Positions 1-40,186 of a stretch of DNA of 40,294 nucleotides are shown here, piece after piece (position 1 is the stretch's first letter; the number at the start of each line of letters is the position of its first letter). The notes under the pieces were generated by a model that was given only the letters and a program-made list of their open reading frames with translations, ran no database searches and was not told the origin of the DNA. Source of the stretch: an uncultured Alphaproteobacteria bacterium (GTDB taxonomy: Bacteria > Pseudomonadota > Alphaproteobacteria > CAAHEQ01 > UBA3637); NCBI GenBank assembly GCA_947627155.1, contig CANQUX010000016.1, positions 1 to 40,294 of the forward strand. Direction: 5' to 3'. Made by a program: the position numbers and the translations under genes.

Positions 1-160
1 GTACGATTTTTGCAACACTTTTTTTTAAAATTTTGAAAAAAAATTTATTTTAAACGGAATTCATTGATTTTTCAGCTGTTTTTGAATGATAGATTTTAGC
101 CTTTTAAAAGCAAAAATTACCCCCGAATCCGCGTTGCATTAAAGGTACATTTAATTTGTG
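1..160 (+). repeat. Promoter-bearing repeat element, copy A (left end cut by window)
   Basis: This is the first of four copies of a ~170 bp AT-rich element. It begins inside the left inverted end (GTACGATTTTTGCAAC at 1-16) and ends with GCGTTGCATTAAAGGTAC (131-148) followed by a TTTAATTTGTGC end. The two ends are imperfect inverted repeats of each other (TGCAAC facing GTTGCA, each beside GTAC). Unlike the copies in front of the prepilin-like genes, the -10 position here reads TGTGCA instead of TATGCT or TATACT, so the promoter is probably weak or dead. It lies just upstream of the small-RNA unit rather than a gene. The repetition is seen directly; its nature (MITE-like element or regulatory cassette) is inference. 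Confidence 0.7.
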
Positions 161-187
161 CAACACGCCCCAAAACTCTTTTTCTGC

Positions 188-216
188 TTGACATTGATTC
201 TTAATGCCTTTATACT
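188..216 (+). promoter_or_regulatory. Sigma-70 promoter of small RNA
   Basis: A perfect TTGACA at 188-193 is separated by 17 bp from TATACT at 211-216. This is the best promoter match in the window. It lies directly upstream of a folded, non-coding stretch that ends in an intrinsic terminator, which gives a predicted transcript start near 222. Confidence 0.8.
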
Positions 217-221
217 CAAAG

Positions 222-430
222 GCAAGGCAAGTGATGTGTGCCCCGAGGTGTGAGAACCTCTTTCAACAGTGTTCTTGGAAAAGAACAGATTTTCGCCTTG
301 TTTTTTTAATAAACAAGGCAAAAAATCGAACGACCGGAAGGCGGTAAAATAGCCTTTTGGTCAATATACTACGCTATACTTGTGAATAGTTGTTAACTTC
401 CGGTCGCCTCTCATCAAGGCGATTTTTTTT
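222..430 (+). ncRNA. Candidate small RNA of about 205 nt
   Basis: A strong promoter (188-216) and an intrinsic terminator (404-430) bound a stretch with no credible ORF or ribosome-binding site. Visible foldings are a GAGGT/ACCTC hairpin near 245-260, a GTTCTT/AAGAAC hairpin near 271-286, GCCTTGTTT (295-303) facing AAACAAGGC (311-319), and a perfect 10 bp pairing CGACCGGAAG (331-340) with CTTCCGGTCG (397-406). The last pairing overlaps the terminator stem, so the two structures may be mutually exclusive. The length would suit a 6S-like RNA or a trans-acting sRNA, but I do not recognise a family. I see none of the conserved SRP-RNA, tmRNA or RNase P motifs. The identity is unknown; that it is a transcription unit is well supported. 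Confidence 0.65.
404..430 (+). terminator. Intrinsic terminator of small RNA
   Basis: TCGCCT (404-409) and AGGCGA (417-422) form a perfect 6 bp stem with a 7 nt loop, followed by eight T residues (423-430). Confidence 0.85.
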
Positions 431-441
431 GAATATGCATC

Positions 442-612
442 AAAAAAACGTACGTTTTTTGCAACACTTTTTTTTGATTTTTTCAAAAAAAATTTAATGT
501 GAGGAAATTTTAATGCAATATCAAACGGTTATAAAGCGGTTATTTTGCCAATTTTTGAGGGTAATTTTACCCCGGAATCAGCGTTGCATTAAAGGTACGT
601 TTAATTTATGCT
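442..612 (+). repeat. Promoter-bearing repeat element, copy B
   Basis: This is a complete copy. The left end is AAACGTACGTTTTTTGCAAC near 446-465 and the right end is GCGTTGCATTAAAGGTACGT near 581-600. It shares the T-run/A-run core and the GGTAATTTTACC-like segment with copy A. Its right end is the promoter of the first prepilin-like gene, 24 nt before the start codon. The small-RNA unit is sandwiched between copies A and B, as expected if it was captured or bracketed by two element insertions (inference). Confidence 0.75.
584..612 (+). promoter_or_regulatory. Promoter of first prepilin-like gene
   Basis: TTGCAT (584-589), a 17 bp spacer containing the palindrome-like GGTACGTTTAA, then TATGCT (607-612). 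The same -35 and spacer precede the other two prepilin-like genes at 29395-29424 and 40213-40241. The conserved GTAC core in the spacer could be an operator for a shared regulator (inference). The ribosome-binding site AGGAAG lies at 625-630. Confidence 0.7.
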
Positions 613-636
613 ATTTGCATTGAAAGGAAGCGAAAA

Positions 637-2094
637 ATGAGCAATAAAATGAAGAAAAAACAAGTTCAAAATCAGGCGCAAGAAGGGCGCAGTATGGTTG
701 AAATGCTGGGCGTTCTGGCAATAATCGGTGTTATCTCAATCGGTGGCATTTCAGGATATAGAATGGCCATGAATCGATATCAAGCGAATCAAATCGCGAA
801 TGAAATCAATCTGATGCGTACCGATGCGAAAGTGAAAGCGGCGGCGCAGGTGACGGGAAAGTTGATGTTGGGGGAACCGTATGATTCGGGACATTTAAAT
901 TTCGGCACTAATTATGAAGTTGATTTTGATTTTATAGATATTAAATCGGAGGATGAAGGCGTAACGGAAGCGGGATATTATATAAAAATATCAGGCGTTT
1001 CGGCGGGCGTGTGTAAACCGTTGGTCACCTTGTTAAACGGCATGAATGAAACGGTTGCATTAAAGGTCAATGACGGGGAATATAGTGCAGATTCGAGCGT
1101 AGATTTCTGCACCGAAGAAAGCAATAATGCGTTAGAGGTAGATTTTTCGACAGAAAAGATAATCAGTAATAGCGGAGAGGAACCGGAACCGCCGGAAGAA
1201 CAAGGCGATGAGCCGCAAGACCCGGAATGCAATGAGGATACCTGCCCGGAAGGAACGTGCAACGATGAAGGAGTGTGTGAATGTTCGGGAGAAAATGAGA
1301 ATTGGACGGGAACGGATTGCATCACATGTCCGACGGGAACAACGTGGAGTGAAACGGAAAGAGACTGCGTGTGTTCAGATGAAAATAAATATTGGACAGG
1401 CTATCAATGTGTAACGTGTGATGCCAGCACCGGCGGCACATGGGACGAAGAAAACAAGGAATGCAAGTGTAATGATGAGAACAAATATTGGAGCGATTCG
1501 GCCGGAGCATGCATTGAAAACCCGTGTAATCATGGGCAAGGGTGCCCTGTAAATCAATTTTGTTTGAGCAGCACTTGTAGTGGATGTAGCAGCGGTACAA
1601 TCACCGAGAGTTGCAGCAAATATGAATGTAAGTCGATATCAGAGTACACAGCAGAAAACAAGGATAGTGAACACCCGGATAAATATGTGATGACGAAGGA
1701 TGGTAAGTATATGAATTGGTGGAGTGCAGAGCGGTTCTGCAATGCGTTAGGGAAGCATATGGTAAGTGCAACTGAATTAAAATGCAAGGATAGGTTTGGT
1801 GAGGATTTCGGGTATGGTAAGAGTAATACATGGTGTTATTGTCACAATGACGAGTCAGAGAAGACATGTAGGCAGTCTAGTACAAGTGAAGTAAGTAGTG
1901 TAATAAAGGCGTTAAGGAAGGCAGAGAACGGGACAGAGACAAAAGGAAATCACTCCTACTGGTTGTATGATGCATATGCAAACACAACTTCCAGTAAAAA
2001 TTCCTGCAACGCGTACTTCTTCTACCTCGGTGACGGTCAAGTCGTCAGCAGCGCTCGCAACAACTACGGCAGCTACTACGTCTTATGTGAGTGA
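637..2094 (+). CDS. Prepilin-like cysteine-rich surface protein with lectin-like variable C-terminus
   Basis: This 485-residue protein has a type IV prepilin-like N-terminus: a short basic leader, then G17|RSMVEMLG with Glu at mature position +5, then a hydrophobic helix to about residue 41. A pilin-type globular segment (about 42-175) follows. Next is an acidic Pro/Glu linker, then EGF-like Cys-rich repeats (about 198-320, motif D-E-N-K-Y-W plus paired Cys), then a C-terminal domain (about 340-485) of C-type-lectin-like appearance ending Y-V-L-C-E. Such proteins are normally cleaved by a prepilin peptidase and displayed at the cell surface; adhesion is inferred. Composition changes along the gene: codons for about residues 330-438 are AG-rich, and from codon 458 to 483, 20 of 26 codons end in C, unlike the rest of the window. 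That tail suggests a DGR variable region. The start is fixed by AGGAAG six bases upstream. Two paralogues lie at 27358-29367 and 38204-40186. Confidence 0.85.
   Translation: MSNKMKKKQVQNQAQEGRSMVEMLGVLAIIGVISIGGISGYRMAMNRYQANQIANEINLMRTDAKVKAAAQVTGKLMLGEPYDSGHLNFGTNYEVDFDFIDIKSEDEGVTEAGYYIKISGVSAGVCKPLVTLLNGMNETVALKVNDGEYSADSSVDFCTEESNNALEVDFSTEKIISNSGEEPEPPEEQGDEPQDPECNEDTCPEGTCNDEGVCECSGENENWTGTDCITCPTGTTWSETERDCVCSDENKYWTGYQCVTCDASTGGTWDEENKECKCNDENKYWSDSAGACIENPCNHGQGCPVNQFCLSSTCSGCSSGTITESCSKYECKSISEYTAENKDSEHPDKYVMTKDGKYMNWWSAERFCNALGKHMVSATELKCKDRFGEDFGYGKSNTWCYCHNDESEKTCRQSSTSEVSSVIKALRKAENGTETKGNHSYWLYDAYANTTSSKNSCNAYFFYLGDGQVVSSARNNYGSYYVLCE
1951..2094 (+). other. Candidate DGR variable region (VR)
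   Basis: The last 47 codons of the gene encode H-S-Y-W-L...Y-Y-V-L-C-E. From 2008 onward nearly all codons are NNC, dominated by AAC, TAC, AGC, GTC, GAC and TTC, and a GC-rich hairpin follows the stop (2122-2155). In DGRs, adenines of AAC-type template codons are mutated to any base, leaving NNC codons in a lectin-fold C-terminus next to a GC-rich end and a hairpin. All of these features are visible here. The reverse transcriptase and the template repeat are not in the window, so the assignment is inference. Confidence 0.5.
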
Positions 2095-2121
2095 GGCCAG
2101 CCCGCTTGCCGTCTTTCCCGA

Positions 2122-2155
2122 TGCCCCGCCTTTACGGCTTCCATTCAGCGGGGCA
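2122..2155 (+). other. GC-rich hairpin just after the candidate VR
   Basis: TGCCCCGC (2122-2129) pairs perfectly with GCGGGGCA (2148-2155) across an 18 nt loop, 27 bp after the stop codon. No T-run follows, so it is a poor terminator. Position and form resemble the hairpin/cruciform that follows the variable repeat in known DGRs. Confidence 0.55.
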
Positions 2156-2166
2156 CCTCTCTCTTT

Positions 2167-2806
2167 CCCCTCTATCGGCCCATAGCGACAGACGACAAAA
2201 TGCCGTCTGTCCCACCCGCCGATAGAGGGGAAATTATTCGCAGCAAACTTATTGTTTCGCGCCGAATCGCTTTATTTTCGGCACATCGCGCTATCCCACG
2301 TTTCACGGGATAGCACTTCCCGCCGAAAATAAGAGAAAGTGTCAAAGCAACATGTCTTTTATCATTTTACTCCACCGAATGCCTAATTCTCGGCACATAG
2401 CGGAGCGGCGCAATTGTGCCGCTCCACATCCGCCGAGAATGAGAGATAGAGACACAATTTCCGTTCTCTGCCAATTCTTATTTTCGGCCCACCGCGCTAT
2501 CCCACAATAGCGGGATAGCACTTCCCGCCGAAAATTAAGAAAATCTCATCACCTGCGAATGGGAAGAAAATAAAATCAGCCTTTACTTGTCACCGCGCCG
2601 GCGCATATTCTTCGCACCGACACTTTCCGCCGAAAATTAAAAAAAACGAGTATATCCACAAAAAAATAAATTATCATCACCCGTAAAATAAGAAAAAGTG
2701 CCAACTGCAAATAGAGCGGGAAAATATCGTTTGCATTCATCCTTTTTGCCAAAATGACAGCCTGCCTACTTTCCCCCTATCGGCGCATCCCACCTGCCGA
2801 TAGGGG
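2167..2806. repeat. Array of nested palindromes (potential cruciforms)
   Basis: Five clear units and one decayed unit fill the gap between convergent genes. Outer/inner stems are: 2167-2179 with 2218-2230 (inner 2188-2194 with 2204-2210); 2272-2282 with 2322-2332 (inner GCTATCCC/GGGATAGC 2290-2297 with 2307-2314); 2386-2394 with 2432-2440 (inner GGAGCGGC/GCCGCTCC 2402-2409 with 2418-2425); 2480-2488 with 2527-2535 (same inner stem as unit 2, 2496-2503 with 2512-2519); a decayed unit with only the right arm at 2629-2640; and 2774-2784 with 2796-2806. Every outer stem ends ..CGGC and restarts GCCG.., while the distal stem sequence differs between units. No T-runs follow, and there is no coding potential. 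The function is unknown. Confidence 0.75.
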
Positions 2807-2828
2807 AAAACAGACCGGTTATTATTCG

Positions 2829-3956
<1,128 letters not shown>

Positions 3957-27330: not shown

Positions 27331-27359
27331 AAAAGCGGACAGAAATGTCCGCTTTTTTT
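27331..27359 (+). terminator. Bidirectional terminator between gatB and second prepilin-like gene
   Basis: AAAAGCGGAC (27331-27340) pairs with GTCCGCTTTT (27347-27356) around a 6 nt loop and ends in seven T. The A-run on the other flank lets it also end the convergent gene, whose stop codon (27358-27360) overlaps the hairpin's edge. Confidence 0.88.
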
Positions 27360-29367
27360 ATTCTTTGCATAAAGCCTGTATATAAGTATGTTCCCCTTTC
27401 CAAGAATTGTATCGAATCCACTTGTTCTCATAACAGGCATGATATGCATGACATTCACCAATTGCTTCCAACCAAAAATGTGTTTGTGTGCCATTCGGAT
27501 CCACTGTTGCAAATTCACCGGTACTTTTTAAATCTTGCACAATTTTTTCTTCAATATCCGATTCCGTACAAAAGGAATCCGAATGAGTGCTGCAACCCAA
27601 CAAACTTCTTGTTGCCATTGGTTTGTGAAGGGCTTTACAAAACCGCTCGGCACTGCCCCATGTCATGACATGTTCGGAATAATAAAATTTTGAGGTCGGT
27701 AAATAGCCTTTTTCCGAATTAACATCAACGCACTTTCCGGAATAAGTCTGCGAATACGGACTGGGAGAAAATTCTTCACACAGCTGATATCTTAATGTCA
27801 TCATACAAAATTCTCCGTCCGCACAATCTTCATTACTGCGGCATTCATATGCATGGCATTTACCGTCGTTAACATACCATAACGATTTTGGCGGACACGG
27901 CTCGCACGTGTTTGTATCTGAATTGCAAACCGGATTATTTGTATCTTTTTCAATGCAATTTTGATTATTTAAGCATTCCACGCATTGATTGGTTGCGGTA
28001 TTGCATTTGGGCGTATTAGGCGTATCTGTGCAGTCGCTATCTGCCGTGCATTCCACACATTCTCTACTTTCATCGTCCCATACCTGATTATCAAAGCATT
28101 GAATGCATATACTTGCATTCGAGCAATGGTAACTTGTTCCTTTGGCTTGGCATTCCTCTTCCGTTTGACAGGTTGTGCATTTGTTTCCTCTGCAAACCAA
28201 CGCTTCTTCACAATCCCCACTTTCTATGCATTCCACGCAAGTGTTAGTATCCGTATTGCATTGCGGTTTTTCGGAATTCTTGCAATCAGCAGATGATAAA
28301 CATTCCACACATTCTCTACTTTCATCGTCCCATACCTGATTATCAAAGCATTGAATGCATGTACTTGCATTTGAGCAGTGATAAGTTGTTCCTTTGGCTT
28401 GGCATTCCTCTTCCGTTTGACAGGTTGTGCATTTGTTTCCTCTGCAAACCTGTTCTTCCGAACAATTACTGCTTTCTATGCATTCCACGCAAGTATTAGT
28501 TTCCGTGTTGCATTTAGGCGTATCAGAATCGGTGCAATCGTCATCTGCCGTGCATTCTACGCACTCTTCGCCGTTCCAAACTCCGCTTTCGCACGTCACG
28601 CATGTATTGTTTTCACAATATTGATTATGTTCACATTGATTATCTTCATAACATTTCACACATACATGCCGTGACGGGTCACAATAATGCGTGCTTTCCG
28701 ATTCGCAATCCGTATCTTCTGCACAAGCAACTAACTCCGACACCGCTTCCGCCGAAAATACCGCATTTAAAACATTTCCGTTTCCCGCTTCGCATTTTCC
28801 CGTCTCCGGATATTCATCTTTATTCACATTAAATGCAATTATATTGTTCATGCCGTTTACTAATTCCGCCAACGGCCGACAAACGCCTTCGGGAATGTTT
28901 TGCAACTCAATATAATAAGCATTTGCAACATGACACGATATATTTGAAAGCTCAACAGTTTCATCATCAGCCAAAGCGCAAGCAAAATCAACGGGATAAT
29001 CATCATTAAATTGAATATGTCCGAGCGTGGATTCACTAATCGGATCATAAGGCTCACCAAGGATTAATTTTTCCGTGCCTTGGGCAATTTTTATTTGCGC
29101 ATCAGTGCGCATGATATTCATTTCATGCGCGATTTGATTCGCTTGATAATAGTTCATCGCCAACCGAAACCCGACAATCCCCCCGATGGACAGAATAGCA
29201 ATAATGGCTAAAACGCCCAGCATTTCAACCATTGAACGCCCGCTTTGTGAGTGTGTTTTGATTCTGTTTTTCTTTCCTGCTTCCCCGCACATAGTTTGCG
29301 GTTGATTGTTTTGCATATATTCTGTTTGGGATTGATTTTTAAATTGTTTTTTTGATTGCATTGTCAT
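27358..29367 (-). CDS. Prepilin-like cysteine-rich surface protein, second copy
   Basis: This 669-residue protein starts at 29367 (GGGAG at 29375-29379); a longer reading would run back into the promoter. It has an N-terminal leader of about 43 residues, then the prepilin motif S-G|R-S-M-V-E-M-L-G and a hydrophobic helix. A pilin-like globular region follows, then a long Cys-rich stretch of repeats of about 30-45 residues (motifs C-N-T-x-T-N-T-C-V-E-C, C-Q-T-E-E-E-C-Q-A-K-G and C-I-Q-C). The C-terminal lectin-like domain has S-A-E-R-F-C-K-A-L and ends A-L-C-K-E. Two consecutive 84-residue blocks are encoded by a 252 bp direct repeat (28049-28300 and from 28301). The C-terminal codons are ordinary for the genome, unlike the NNC tail of the first copy. 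The N-terminal ~215 residues are nearly identical to the copy at 38204-40186. Confidence 0.85.
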   Translation of the reverse strand: MTMQSKKQFKNQSQTEYMQNNQPQTMCGEAGKKNRIKTHSQSGRSMVEMLGVLAIIAILSIGGIVGFRLAMNYYQANQIAHEMNIMRTDAQIKIAQGTEKLILGEPYDPISESTLGHIQFNDDYPVDFACALADDETVELSNISCHVANAYYIELQNIPEGVCRPLAELVNGMNNIIAFNVNKDEYPETGKCEAGNGNVLNAVFSAEAVSELVACAEDTDCESESTHYCDPSRHVCVKCYEDNQCEHNQYCENNTCVTCESGVWNGEECVECTADDDCTDSDTPKCNTETNTCVECIESSNCSEEQVCRGNKCTTCQTEEECQAKGTTYHCSNASTCIQCFDNQVWDDESRECVECLSSADCKNSEKPQCNTDTNTCVECIESGDCEEALVCRGNKCTTCQTEEECQAKGTSYHCSNASICIQCFDNQVWDDESRECVECTADSDCTDTPNTPKCNTATNQCVECLNNQNCIEKDTNNPVCNSDTNTCEPCPPKSLWYVNDGKCHAYECRSNEDCADGEFCMMTLRYQLCEEFSPSPYSQTYSGKCVDVNSEKGYLPTSKFYYSEHVMTWGSAERFCKALHKPMATRSLLGCSTHSDSFCTESDIEEKIVQDLKSTGEFATVDPNGTQTHFWLEAIGECHAYHACYENKWIRYNSWKGEHTYIQALCKE
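28049..28550 (-). repeat. 252 bp tandem coding repeat in second prepilin-like gene
   Basis: The block starting CATTCCACAC at 28049 recurs at 28301, a period of exactly 252 bp (84 codons). The first ~150 bp of the two units are almost identical on reading and the remainder has diverged. The in-frame period allows unit gain or loss without breaking the protein. Confidence 0.8.
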
Positions 29368-29394
29368 TTTCCGACTCCCTTTCATTATACAAAC

Positions 29395-29424
29395 AGTATA
29401 CAATTAAACGTACCTTTAATGCAA
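29395..29424 (-). promoter_or_regulatory. Promoter of second prepilin-like gene
   Basis: On the minus strand TTGCAT (29419-29424), an 18 bp spacer with the conserved GGTACGTTTAAT, and TATACT (29395-29400). It corresponds to the right end of repeat-element copy C. Confidence 0.68.
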
Positions 29425-38203: not shown

Positions 38204-40186
38204 TTAATGACACAACGCATGTCCGCCGTTTGGAATATCGTTACGAGCATTGCTATGCAAGTACGCATCACTGGTGCGATAATCATACGCGCTGCTATTC
38301 ACAAAAGCATTTCCCATCCAAATTTGAACCGCATAATATTTTTCCCTATCATGACCAAAAAGCTCTTTTAAATCTTTTGTTCGCTCCGAAAAAATACAAT
38401 AAGGTCGGTTACCGTTCCACCCGAGACCCGTAGCGGAAGTATTTGTTTCTTGATCGATGCAATTGACTATACCGTAATCAGCCATATAGTTTGTCGGAGA
38501 CCAATTCAACGGTTTATTACACTTTGTATCATCGGCATAATTTGCTCTTGCCGCACATAAGTGACAGGCATCAAACCATGTCATACTGTTTTGAGAACCG
38601 TAATACATTGTGCCATCCAGATTTTTAGAATGTTTCAATTCTGCCGCAACCGATTGACAAGAGCCGACACCGGTTTGTTCCGTAGTCGATGACGATTCGC
38701 CAAAATGGCAATACTTTCCGTTTTCACAATTTGCATTGACTTTGCACCCCGGCGCACATTTTGTTCCATCCCAAAACGAATTTTTAGGACACGCTTCGCA
38801 CTTGTTTATCTCTGTATTACAGTTTGGCGTATCGGGTGTATCCTTACAATCTTCATAAGTTACACACTCCACACATCCTTTTTCTTGTCCGCCCCACACA
38901 AGATTACTCGGACATTGAATACACTTATCTTCCTTTGAGCAGTGATAAGTTGTTCCTTTTGCTTGGCATTCTTCTTCCGTTTGACAATTTGTGCATTCAT
39001 TTCCTCTGCACACCAGTTCTGCCGAACAATTACTGCTTTCTACACATTCCACGCAAGTGTTAGTTTCCGTGTTGCATTGCGGTTTATTAGAATTTTTGCA
39101 ATCGGCAGACGATAAACATTCCACGCATTCTCTACTTTCATTGTCCCATACCTGATTCGCAGGGCATTGAATGCATGTACTTGCATTTGAGCAGTGATAA
39201 GTTGTTCCTTTTGCTTGACATTCCTCTTCCGTTTGACAATTTGTGCATTCATTTCCTCTGCATACTTGTTCGTCCGCACAATCTGTGCTTTCTACGCATT
39301 CCACGCAAGTGTTAGTATCCGTGTTGCATTTAGGCGTATCAGGATCAGTGCAATCGTCATCTGCCGTACATTCCACGCACTCTTCACCGTTCCAAACACC
39401 GCTTTCACATGTAACGCATGTATTGTTTTCACAATATTGATTATGTTCACATTGATTATCTTCATAACATTTCACGCACACATGCCGTGACGGATCACAA
39501 TAAGGCGTGCTTCCCGATTCGTCGCAATCCTCCACTCCTTTACATGCCTTTAATTCCGAAACCGCTTCCGCCGAAAATACCGCATTTAAAACATTTCCGT
39601 TTCCCGCTTCGCATTTTCCCGTCTCCGGATATTCATTTTTGTTCACATTAAACGCGATGATATTGTTCATGCCGTTCACTAATTCCGCCAACGGTTTACA
39701 AACGCCCTCGGGAATGTTTTGCAACTCAATATAATAAGCATTTGCAACATGACACGATATATTTGAAAGCTCAACAGTTTCATCATCAGCCAAAGCGCAA
39801 GCAAAATCAACGGGATAATCATCATTAAACTGAATATGCCCGAGCCGGGATTCGCTGATGGGGTCATAAGGCTCACCAAGGATTAATTTTTCCGTGCCTT
39901 GGGCAATTTTTATCTGCGCATCAGTCCGCATGATATTCATTTCATGTGCAATTTGATTGGCTTGATAATAATTCATCGCCAATCGAAACCCGACGATTCC
40001 CCCGATGGACAGAATAGCAATAATGGCTAAAACGCCCAGCATTTCAATCATGCTCCGCCCGCTTTGCGAGTGTGTTTTGATTCTATTTTTCTTTCCTGCC
40101 TTCCCGCTCACGATTTGCGGTTGATTGTTTTGCATATATTCTGTTTGTGATTGATTTTCAAATTGTTTTTTTGATTGTCTTGTCAT
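38204..40186 (-). CDS. Prepilin-like cysteine-rich surface protein, third copy
   Basis: This 660-residue protein starts at 40186, with GGGAG upstream. It has the same plan as the copy at 27358-29367: leader, S-G|R-S-M-I-E-M-L-G, hydrophobic helix, pilin-like region, Cys-rich modules and a C-terminal lectin-like domain. The first ~215 residues are nearly identical to that copy; the Cys-rich part shares its modules in a different order and number; the C-terminal domain is a different, diverged version (M-T-W-F-D-A-C-H-L-C to G-H-A-L-C-H). Two 252 bp units begin at 38865 and 39117. This pattern (constant N-terminus, shuffled middle, divergent end) suits antigenic or ligand diversification by recombination. 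No pilus assembly genes are nearby. Confidence 0.85.
   Translation of the reverse strand: MTRQSKKQFENQSQTEYMQNNQPQIVSGKAGKKNRIKTHSQSGRSMIEMLGVLAIIAILSIGGIVGFRLAMNYYQANQIAHEMNIMRTDAQIKIAQGTEKLILGEPYDPISESRLGHIQFNDDYPVDFACALADDETVELSNISCHVANAYYIELQNIPEGVCKPLAELVNGMNNIIAFNVNKNEYPETGKCEAGNGNVLNAVFSAEAVSELKACKGVEDCDESGSTPYCDPSRHVCVKCYEDNQCEHNQYCENNTCVTCESGVWNGEECVECTADDDCTDPDTPKCNTDTNTCVECVESTDCADEQVCRGNECTNCQTEEECQAKGTTYHCSNASTCIQCPANQVWDNESRECVECLSSADCKNSNKPQCNTETNTCVECVESSNCSAELVCRGNECTNCQTEEECQAKGTTYHCSKEDKCIQCPSNLVWGGQEKGCVECVTYEDCKDTPDTPNCNTEINKCEACPKNSFWDGTKCAPGCKVNANCENGKYCHFGESSSTTEQTGVGSCQSVAAELKHSKNLDGTMYYGSQNSMTWFDACHLCAARANYADDTKCNKPLNWSPTNYMADYGIVNCIDQETNTSATGLGWNGNRPYCIFSERTKDLKELFGHDREKYYAVQIWMGNAFVNSSAYDYRTSDAYLHSNARNDIPNGGHALCH
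38865..39368 (-). repeat. 252 bp tandem coding repeat in third prepilin-like gene
   Basis: Units starting CACTCCACAC at 38865 and CATTCCACGC at 39117 are 252 bp apart, the same period as in the second prepilin-like gene, with long runs of identity such as the segment encoding C-Q-T-E-E-E-C-Q-A-K-G-T-T-Y-H-C. Confidence 0.75.

Follow-up and report, generated by a model that had tools for sequence, protein, structure and literature searches.

How the 3' end of a gene for a prepilin-like surface protein acquired a codon usage so different from that of the rest of the gene is the question raised by a 40,294-nt stretch of DNA from an uncultured alphaproteobacterium (the window). The stretch is contig C16 (CANQUX010000016.1) of a 32-contig draft genome of 1.56 Mb that is 95.8% complete. 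The original prediction, made from the letters alone, had proposed that this tail is a variable repeat (VR) of a diversity-generating retroelement (DGR), and that the gene is a remote target of a reverse transcriptase (RT) and a template repeat (TR) located elsewhere. We consider it very probable that positions 2002-2101 are indeed a DGR VR, and one of at least 25 prepilin-borne targets rewritten in trans; an adenine-specific pattern of change in 25 paralogs, together with two external templates, upheld the assignment of the tail. The gene and its parts are as follows.

637..2094, plus strand: probable DGR target gene encoding 485 aa, with a prepilin-like N-terminus, a Cys-rich stalk, and a C-terminal lectin-like domain (open reading frame and translation)
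685..753, plus strand: type IV prepilin-like N-terminus, GRSMVEMLGVLAIIGVISIGGIS, with G at -1 and E at +5 (translation; weak profile matches)
1222..1626, plus strand: Cys-rich, EGF-like stalk, with approximate limits (read from the translation)
1627..2091, plus strand: C-terminal lectin-like domain bearing the VR (aligned with DGR targets of congeners; weak profile-to-PDB matches; congener model)
2002..2101, plus strand: VR, comprising TCC TGC, AAY-derived codons, and TTA TGT GAG TGA GGCCAGC
2080..2101, plus strand: conserved 3' end of the VR, at the position of the DGR initiation of mutagenic homology (IMH)-like element, GYCTTATGTGAGTGAGGCCAGC (near-invariant across 25 VR genes)
2122..2155, plus strand: GC-rich hairpin with arms at 2122-2129 and 2148-2155 and an 18-nt loop (fold; association with VR genes)

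Codon Signature and Adenine-Specific Change in the Variable Repeats

The protein ends in YVLCE, and a run of C-rich codons begins at 2002-2008 and continues to the stop. Between 2008 and the final three codons, 20 codons have C at the third base, exactly as had been counted, although the total is 25 and not 26. A DNA search showed that the tail segment of approximately 100 bp recurs at more than 20 places in the same genome, in each case as the 3' end of a gene belonging to this family. Extraction yielded 25 unique intact VR genes, which end in TTATGTGAGTGA or, in one case, in TTCTGTGAGTGA; as the genes were taken from the surroundings of known family members, this count is a lower bound. The VR is also present in a 26th member (L023), with its end altered. 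Over the 25 genes, the codon bias noted in the window clearly set the tail apart, with C at the third base in 78.5% of 623 VR codons versus 18.4% of 11,425 upstream codons, and C chosen in 268 of 308 NNY codons in the VR versus 1189 of 3712 upstream.

The consensus of the 25 VRs reads TCC TGC NNC GCG TAC NNC GTY NNC CTY NNY NNY GGT NNC GTC NNC NNC NNC NNT CGC (NNC)n TAC GCC TTA TGT GAG TGA, with AAY codons in a common frame that are scrambled at bases 1 and 2 across the VRs. Against an inferred all-AAY template, 18 of the 30 template-A positions and three of the 46 non-A positions were altered in the VR of the window; over all 25 VRs, the corresponding counts were 389 of 750 and 44 of 1150, so that 90% of the mismatches fell on A. 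Residues that cannot be reached from AAY (M, W, K, E, and Q) amounted to 5 of 350.

Two external templates were available, from a congener (G001) and from a genome of a sister genus (G041). With the G001 TR, 24 of 31 A columns were variable versus seven of 47 non-A columns (Mann-Whitney p 4.7e-9). With the G041 TR, whose sequence nearly equals that predicted by the VRs of this genome, 389 of 750 A cells (52%) were altered, and about 43 of 1075 non-A cells (~4%, obtained by subtraction) outside two haplotype columns and six columns in which all VRs, or all except one, agree on a base other than that of the TR. The non-A differences therefore reflect divergence of the template rather than variation of the VRs. 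Four linked silent sites, each the third base of a codon, occur in the sets C-T-C-T, T-C-T-C, and C-C-T-C (two or three haplotypes), which suggests that there was more than one template, or that the template was replaced over time.

Conserved 3' End and Downstream Hairpin

The near-invariant 3' end at 2080..2101 may correspond to an IMH-like element. Downstream of it, the perfect 8-bp stem of the hairpin starts 27 nt past the stop, where it had been described. The same hairpin follows 21 of the 25 VR genes, at 21-40 nt, versus 2 of 43 other family members (Fisher p 1.4e-11), and both of these non-VR members have VR-like tails. The single-sequence folding score of the hairpin is by itself unexceptional (z -0.8), and the evidence for the hairpin is its association with VR genes, not this score. 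In the system of Bordetella phage BPP-1, an inverted repeat on the 3' side of the IMH increases efficiency (PMC12875486); by analogy, the hairpin found here may play a similar role.

Predicted Fold and Surface Display

A DGR target domain of a congener, which aligns with the domain of the window over a common core, gave a model with pLDDT 82, and its PDB matches were nearly all C-type lectins, the best being the C-terminal domain of Bdellovibrio Bd2740 (Z 10.7, rmsd 2.7, 93 residues). Known DGR proteins were absent from the top of the structural match list, an absence that we do not treat as evidence. A profile-to-PDB search with the domain of the window returned weak matches, mostly to C-type lectins, while searches of Pfam and PHROGs with the tail gave nothing useful. 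On the basis of the congener's domain, the VR is predicted to sit at the 3' end of a domain with a C-type lectin fold, in line with the lectin-like look attributed to the tail.

The other parts of the protein, a prepilin-like N-terminus and a Cys-rich stalk before the Y-V-L-C-E end, also agreed with the original prediction. A prepilin motif (G|x4E) and a hydrophobic helix were read from the sequence; the Pfam N_methyl match to the N-terminus was weak and below the cut-off, and an NCBIfam match to a prepilin-peptidase-dependent protein (E 0.003) was also below its cut-off. No Pfam family matched the stalk at 1222..1626. A prepilin peptidase gene is present in the genome. We infer from these sequence features that the protein is probably displayed on the surface via a type IV pilin or pseudopilin route.

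The Prepilin-Like Family

The family to which the gene belongs has approximately 70-80 copies in this genome among the matches listed. It is expanded in all 43 genomes examined of the GTDB family, whether or not they encode a DGR RT, and the number of copies per genome ranges from 4 to at least 80. Members other than the VR genes carry other tails, a few of which resemble decayed VRs (for example, those of L028, L030, and L077). Upstream of the VR, only 37% of the residues are common between the genes (150 codons), and the constant regions are too recombined relative to those of genome G009, which has the same VR type, for a comparison of VRs orthologue by orthologue. Two further members without the VR signature lie in the window on the minus strand, at 27358-29403 and 38204-40186, the former containing a 252-bp tandem repeat. 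A duplicated leader-like sequence occurs upstream of the target gene (window 1-640), and the non-coding sequence upstream of many family members appears to be about 80% alike, including in other species.

Search for DGR Machinery in This Genome and Its Relatives

A complete DGR locus was found in three of ten congeners, whose named records are alphaproteobacterial metagenome-assembled genomes (MAGs), two of them from the ruminant gut. Within the GTDB family, the RT occurs in 10 of 43 genomes, spread over 5 of 13 genera, and Avd in nine of 43. The G001 locus has the order prepilin-like gene, Avd, TR, RT, and small secreted target; its Avd scored above the Pfam bAvd cut-off (PF22296) and its RT above that of RVT_1 (PF00078), with 8ub7 as the best PDB sequence match of the RT (E 4e-24). 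The G041 locus, in another genus of the same family, has the order Avd-TR-RT. The RT frame of G041 (L169 987-2132) has one in-frame TAA, and is either a pseudogene or affected by an assembly error. No phage origin was found, as the TR pattern was not in viral contigs and the G041 TR region was unmatched in a phage collection; the RT has one relative on a viral contig (39%).

Several results weigh against the reading of the tail as a VR rewritten in trans. The template of the main count was inferred from the VRs themselves, and only those of G001 and G041 are independent. The window's own lectin-like domain received a low-confidence structure prediction (pLDDT 45), so that the fold of the C-terminus is supported through the congener homologue and not through the domain itself. 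In addition, searches of the 95.8%-complete draft for an RT (with RVT_1 and with the congener RT), for Avd (with a profile), and for a TR found none of them, nor were these found in G009 (76% complete). The target gene has no RT in cis, as expected of a remote target, but an RT and a near-identical template elsewhere in the genome, the other part of that claim, were not found in the draft; they were present only in congeners and the sister genus.

This absence may have a technical cause. Among 52 contig ends whose positions were known, 26 are no more than 1 kb away from a family member, versus 13% expected (p 9e-11), and the DGR cassettes of relatives adjoin prepilin-like genes of this family, which makes a repeat-induced gap the simplest reason for the missing cassette. 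Since the assembly is broken at the gene family, the absence of the RT and the template is not established. We regard it as probable that the locus of RT, Avd, and template falls within a gap left by a repeat in the assembly, and as distinctly less probable that it was recently lost or is mobile.

Alternative Explanations

The variable tails might have arisen without a retroelement, by recombination or gene conversion from silent copies in the manner of pilE/pilS, and a large paralog family with a common 3' segment, as well as upstream regions that look recombined between species, would fit such a process. Gene conversion, however, would spread variable blocks between copies, whereas the spread and maximum of pairwise identity at the A columns were those of a column-shuffled control (sd 0.086 versus 0.085; maximum 0.57 versus 0.60), which indicates that the VRs were rewritten independently; furthermore, changes avoid the non-A sites. 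We therefore consider this explanation highly improbable. Ordinary positive selection on lectin loops combined with a local codon bias could likewise be invoked, as lectin-like loops are often variable and Y, S, N, and G, which are common in binding sites, are frequent here. Yet the VR, unlike the region upstream, has conserved its silent third bases and its fixed codons, the same residue being encoded by an identical codon with a frequency of 0.90 in fixed VR codons versus 0.49-0.53 in 150 upstream codons, and the variable columns coincide with the adenines of the external templates. These templates refute the explanation in practice, and leave it a negligible probability.

An explanation closer to the one that we favor is that the VRs were made by a DGR and that the lineage then lost RT, Avd, and TR, leaving a frozen repertoire. 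The failure to find the machinery in a nearly complete assembly, the patchy occurrence of the RT among the family genomes and congeners, and the decayed VR-like tails of some members are all consistent with such a loss. In contrast, six of the 25 VRs are unchanged at every non-A position, and a VR has on average 1.8 such changes in 46 positions, yet the regions upstream have diverged to the low level of common residues given above; this speaks for rewriting that is recent relative to the age of the paralogs. The clustering of contig ends at the gene family, beside which the cassettes of congeners are located, also argues against a loss, which we consider unlikely. It is rather improbable, in our estimation, that the genome truly lacks RT and template and that a mobile or intermittent cassette acts in trans on at least 25 prepilin-borne lectin genes that are permanently there to be rewritten; if this were true, the cell would retain the targets, and the mutator would be present only at times.

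Other Elements near the Gene

Directly after the VR gene, a cluster of nested palindromic repeats occupies window positions 2160-2830 (TTATTTTCGGC...GCTATCCC...GGGATAGC...GCCGAAAATAA and relatives). A perfect 4-bp tandem repeat of 13.2 copies at 3882-3934 sits in the 5' coding end of a gene for a family-10 glycosyltransferase (fucosyltransferase; 2829-3956, minus strand), and looks like a phase-variable switch operating by slipped-strand mispairing.

Comparison with Known Systems and Significance

Several features of the locus recall the DGR of BPP-1 (Mtd, brt, avd, TR/VR), namely an adenine-specific VR that ends a gene with a C-type lectin fold, a conserved 3' end closely followed by an inverted repeat (PMC12875486 describes these elements), and, in the relatives of this bacterium, the order Avd-TR-RT. 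The present system differs in that it is cellular, has no cassette beside the target, has at least 25 remote targets, and uses prepilin-like carriers instead of a tail fibre; the loop of its hairpin is 18 nt. C-type-lectin surface proteins are the usual targets of DGRs (PMC8144416), and DGRs that have several targets or remote ones have been described before (PMC7517822, PMC10907252, PMC6642488). The remote variable proteins of cyanobacteria (PMC7517822) and those of Thiohalocapsa PB-PSB1 (PMC10907252) are similar in that one organism has a number of C-type-lectin VR paralogs, dispersed and located apart from the RT, for which there is evidence of action in trans. Their carriers are mostly signalling or conflict-system proteins, whereas all carriers here belong to one prepilin-like family; Thiohalocapsa has 15 targets and the cyanobacteria 76 remote targets over a set of genomes, compared with at least 25 in the single draft analyzed here. 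DGRs of Bacteroides that act on type V tip pilins, cited in PMC12632263, likewise rewrite a pilin-type binding protein on the surface of a gut bacterium; these are lipoprotein type V pilins, of another pilus class and another phylum. Also close are the DGRs of gut alphaproteobacterial MAGs (SIG53, RGIG7750, RGIG4106, and G041 of the sister genus), which share the target domain and the template design and whose templates predict the VR columns found here; they carry RT, Avd, and TR, unlike this draft. In the literature, of which our coverage was partial, we found no paper on prepilin-like DGR carriers at this copy number.

In the mechanism that we propose, the DGR RT would make random errors at adenines when copying the template RNA, and the resulting cDNA would replace the VR of remote target genes, one template type (in two or three haplotypes) having served at least 25 prepilin-like surface proteins. 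The expected TR would approximate TCCTGC AAC GCGTAC AAC GTY AAC CTY AAY AAY GGT AAC GTC (AAC)3 AAT CGC (AAC)n TAC GCC TTATGTGAGTGAG. The proteins may bind variable ligands, for instance glycans of the host or of food, phages, or other cells.

The cellular DGRs described to date mostly act on a single target or on a few; in this small, gut-type genome of 1.56 Mb, at least 25 paralogous surface proteins are apparently served by one DGR. As a sample from within a single genome, the 25 VRs are unusually numerous, and they lend themselves to measuring DGR mutation spectra and what the 3' hairpin contributes. The cell seems to bear many rapidly changing binding tips on its pilin-like surface proteins, which, if true, would provide an example in bacteria of an extensive receptor repertoire, separately mutable, on pilin-like stalks.
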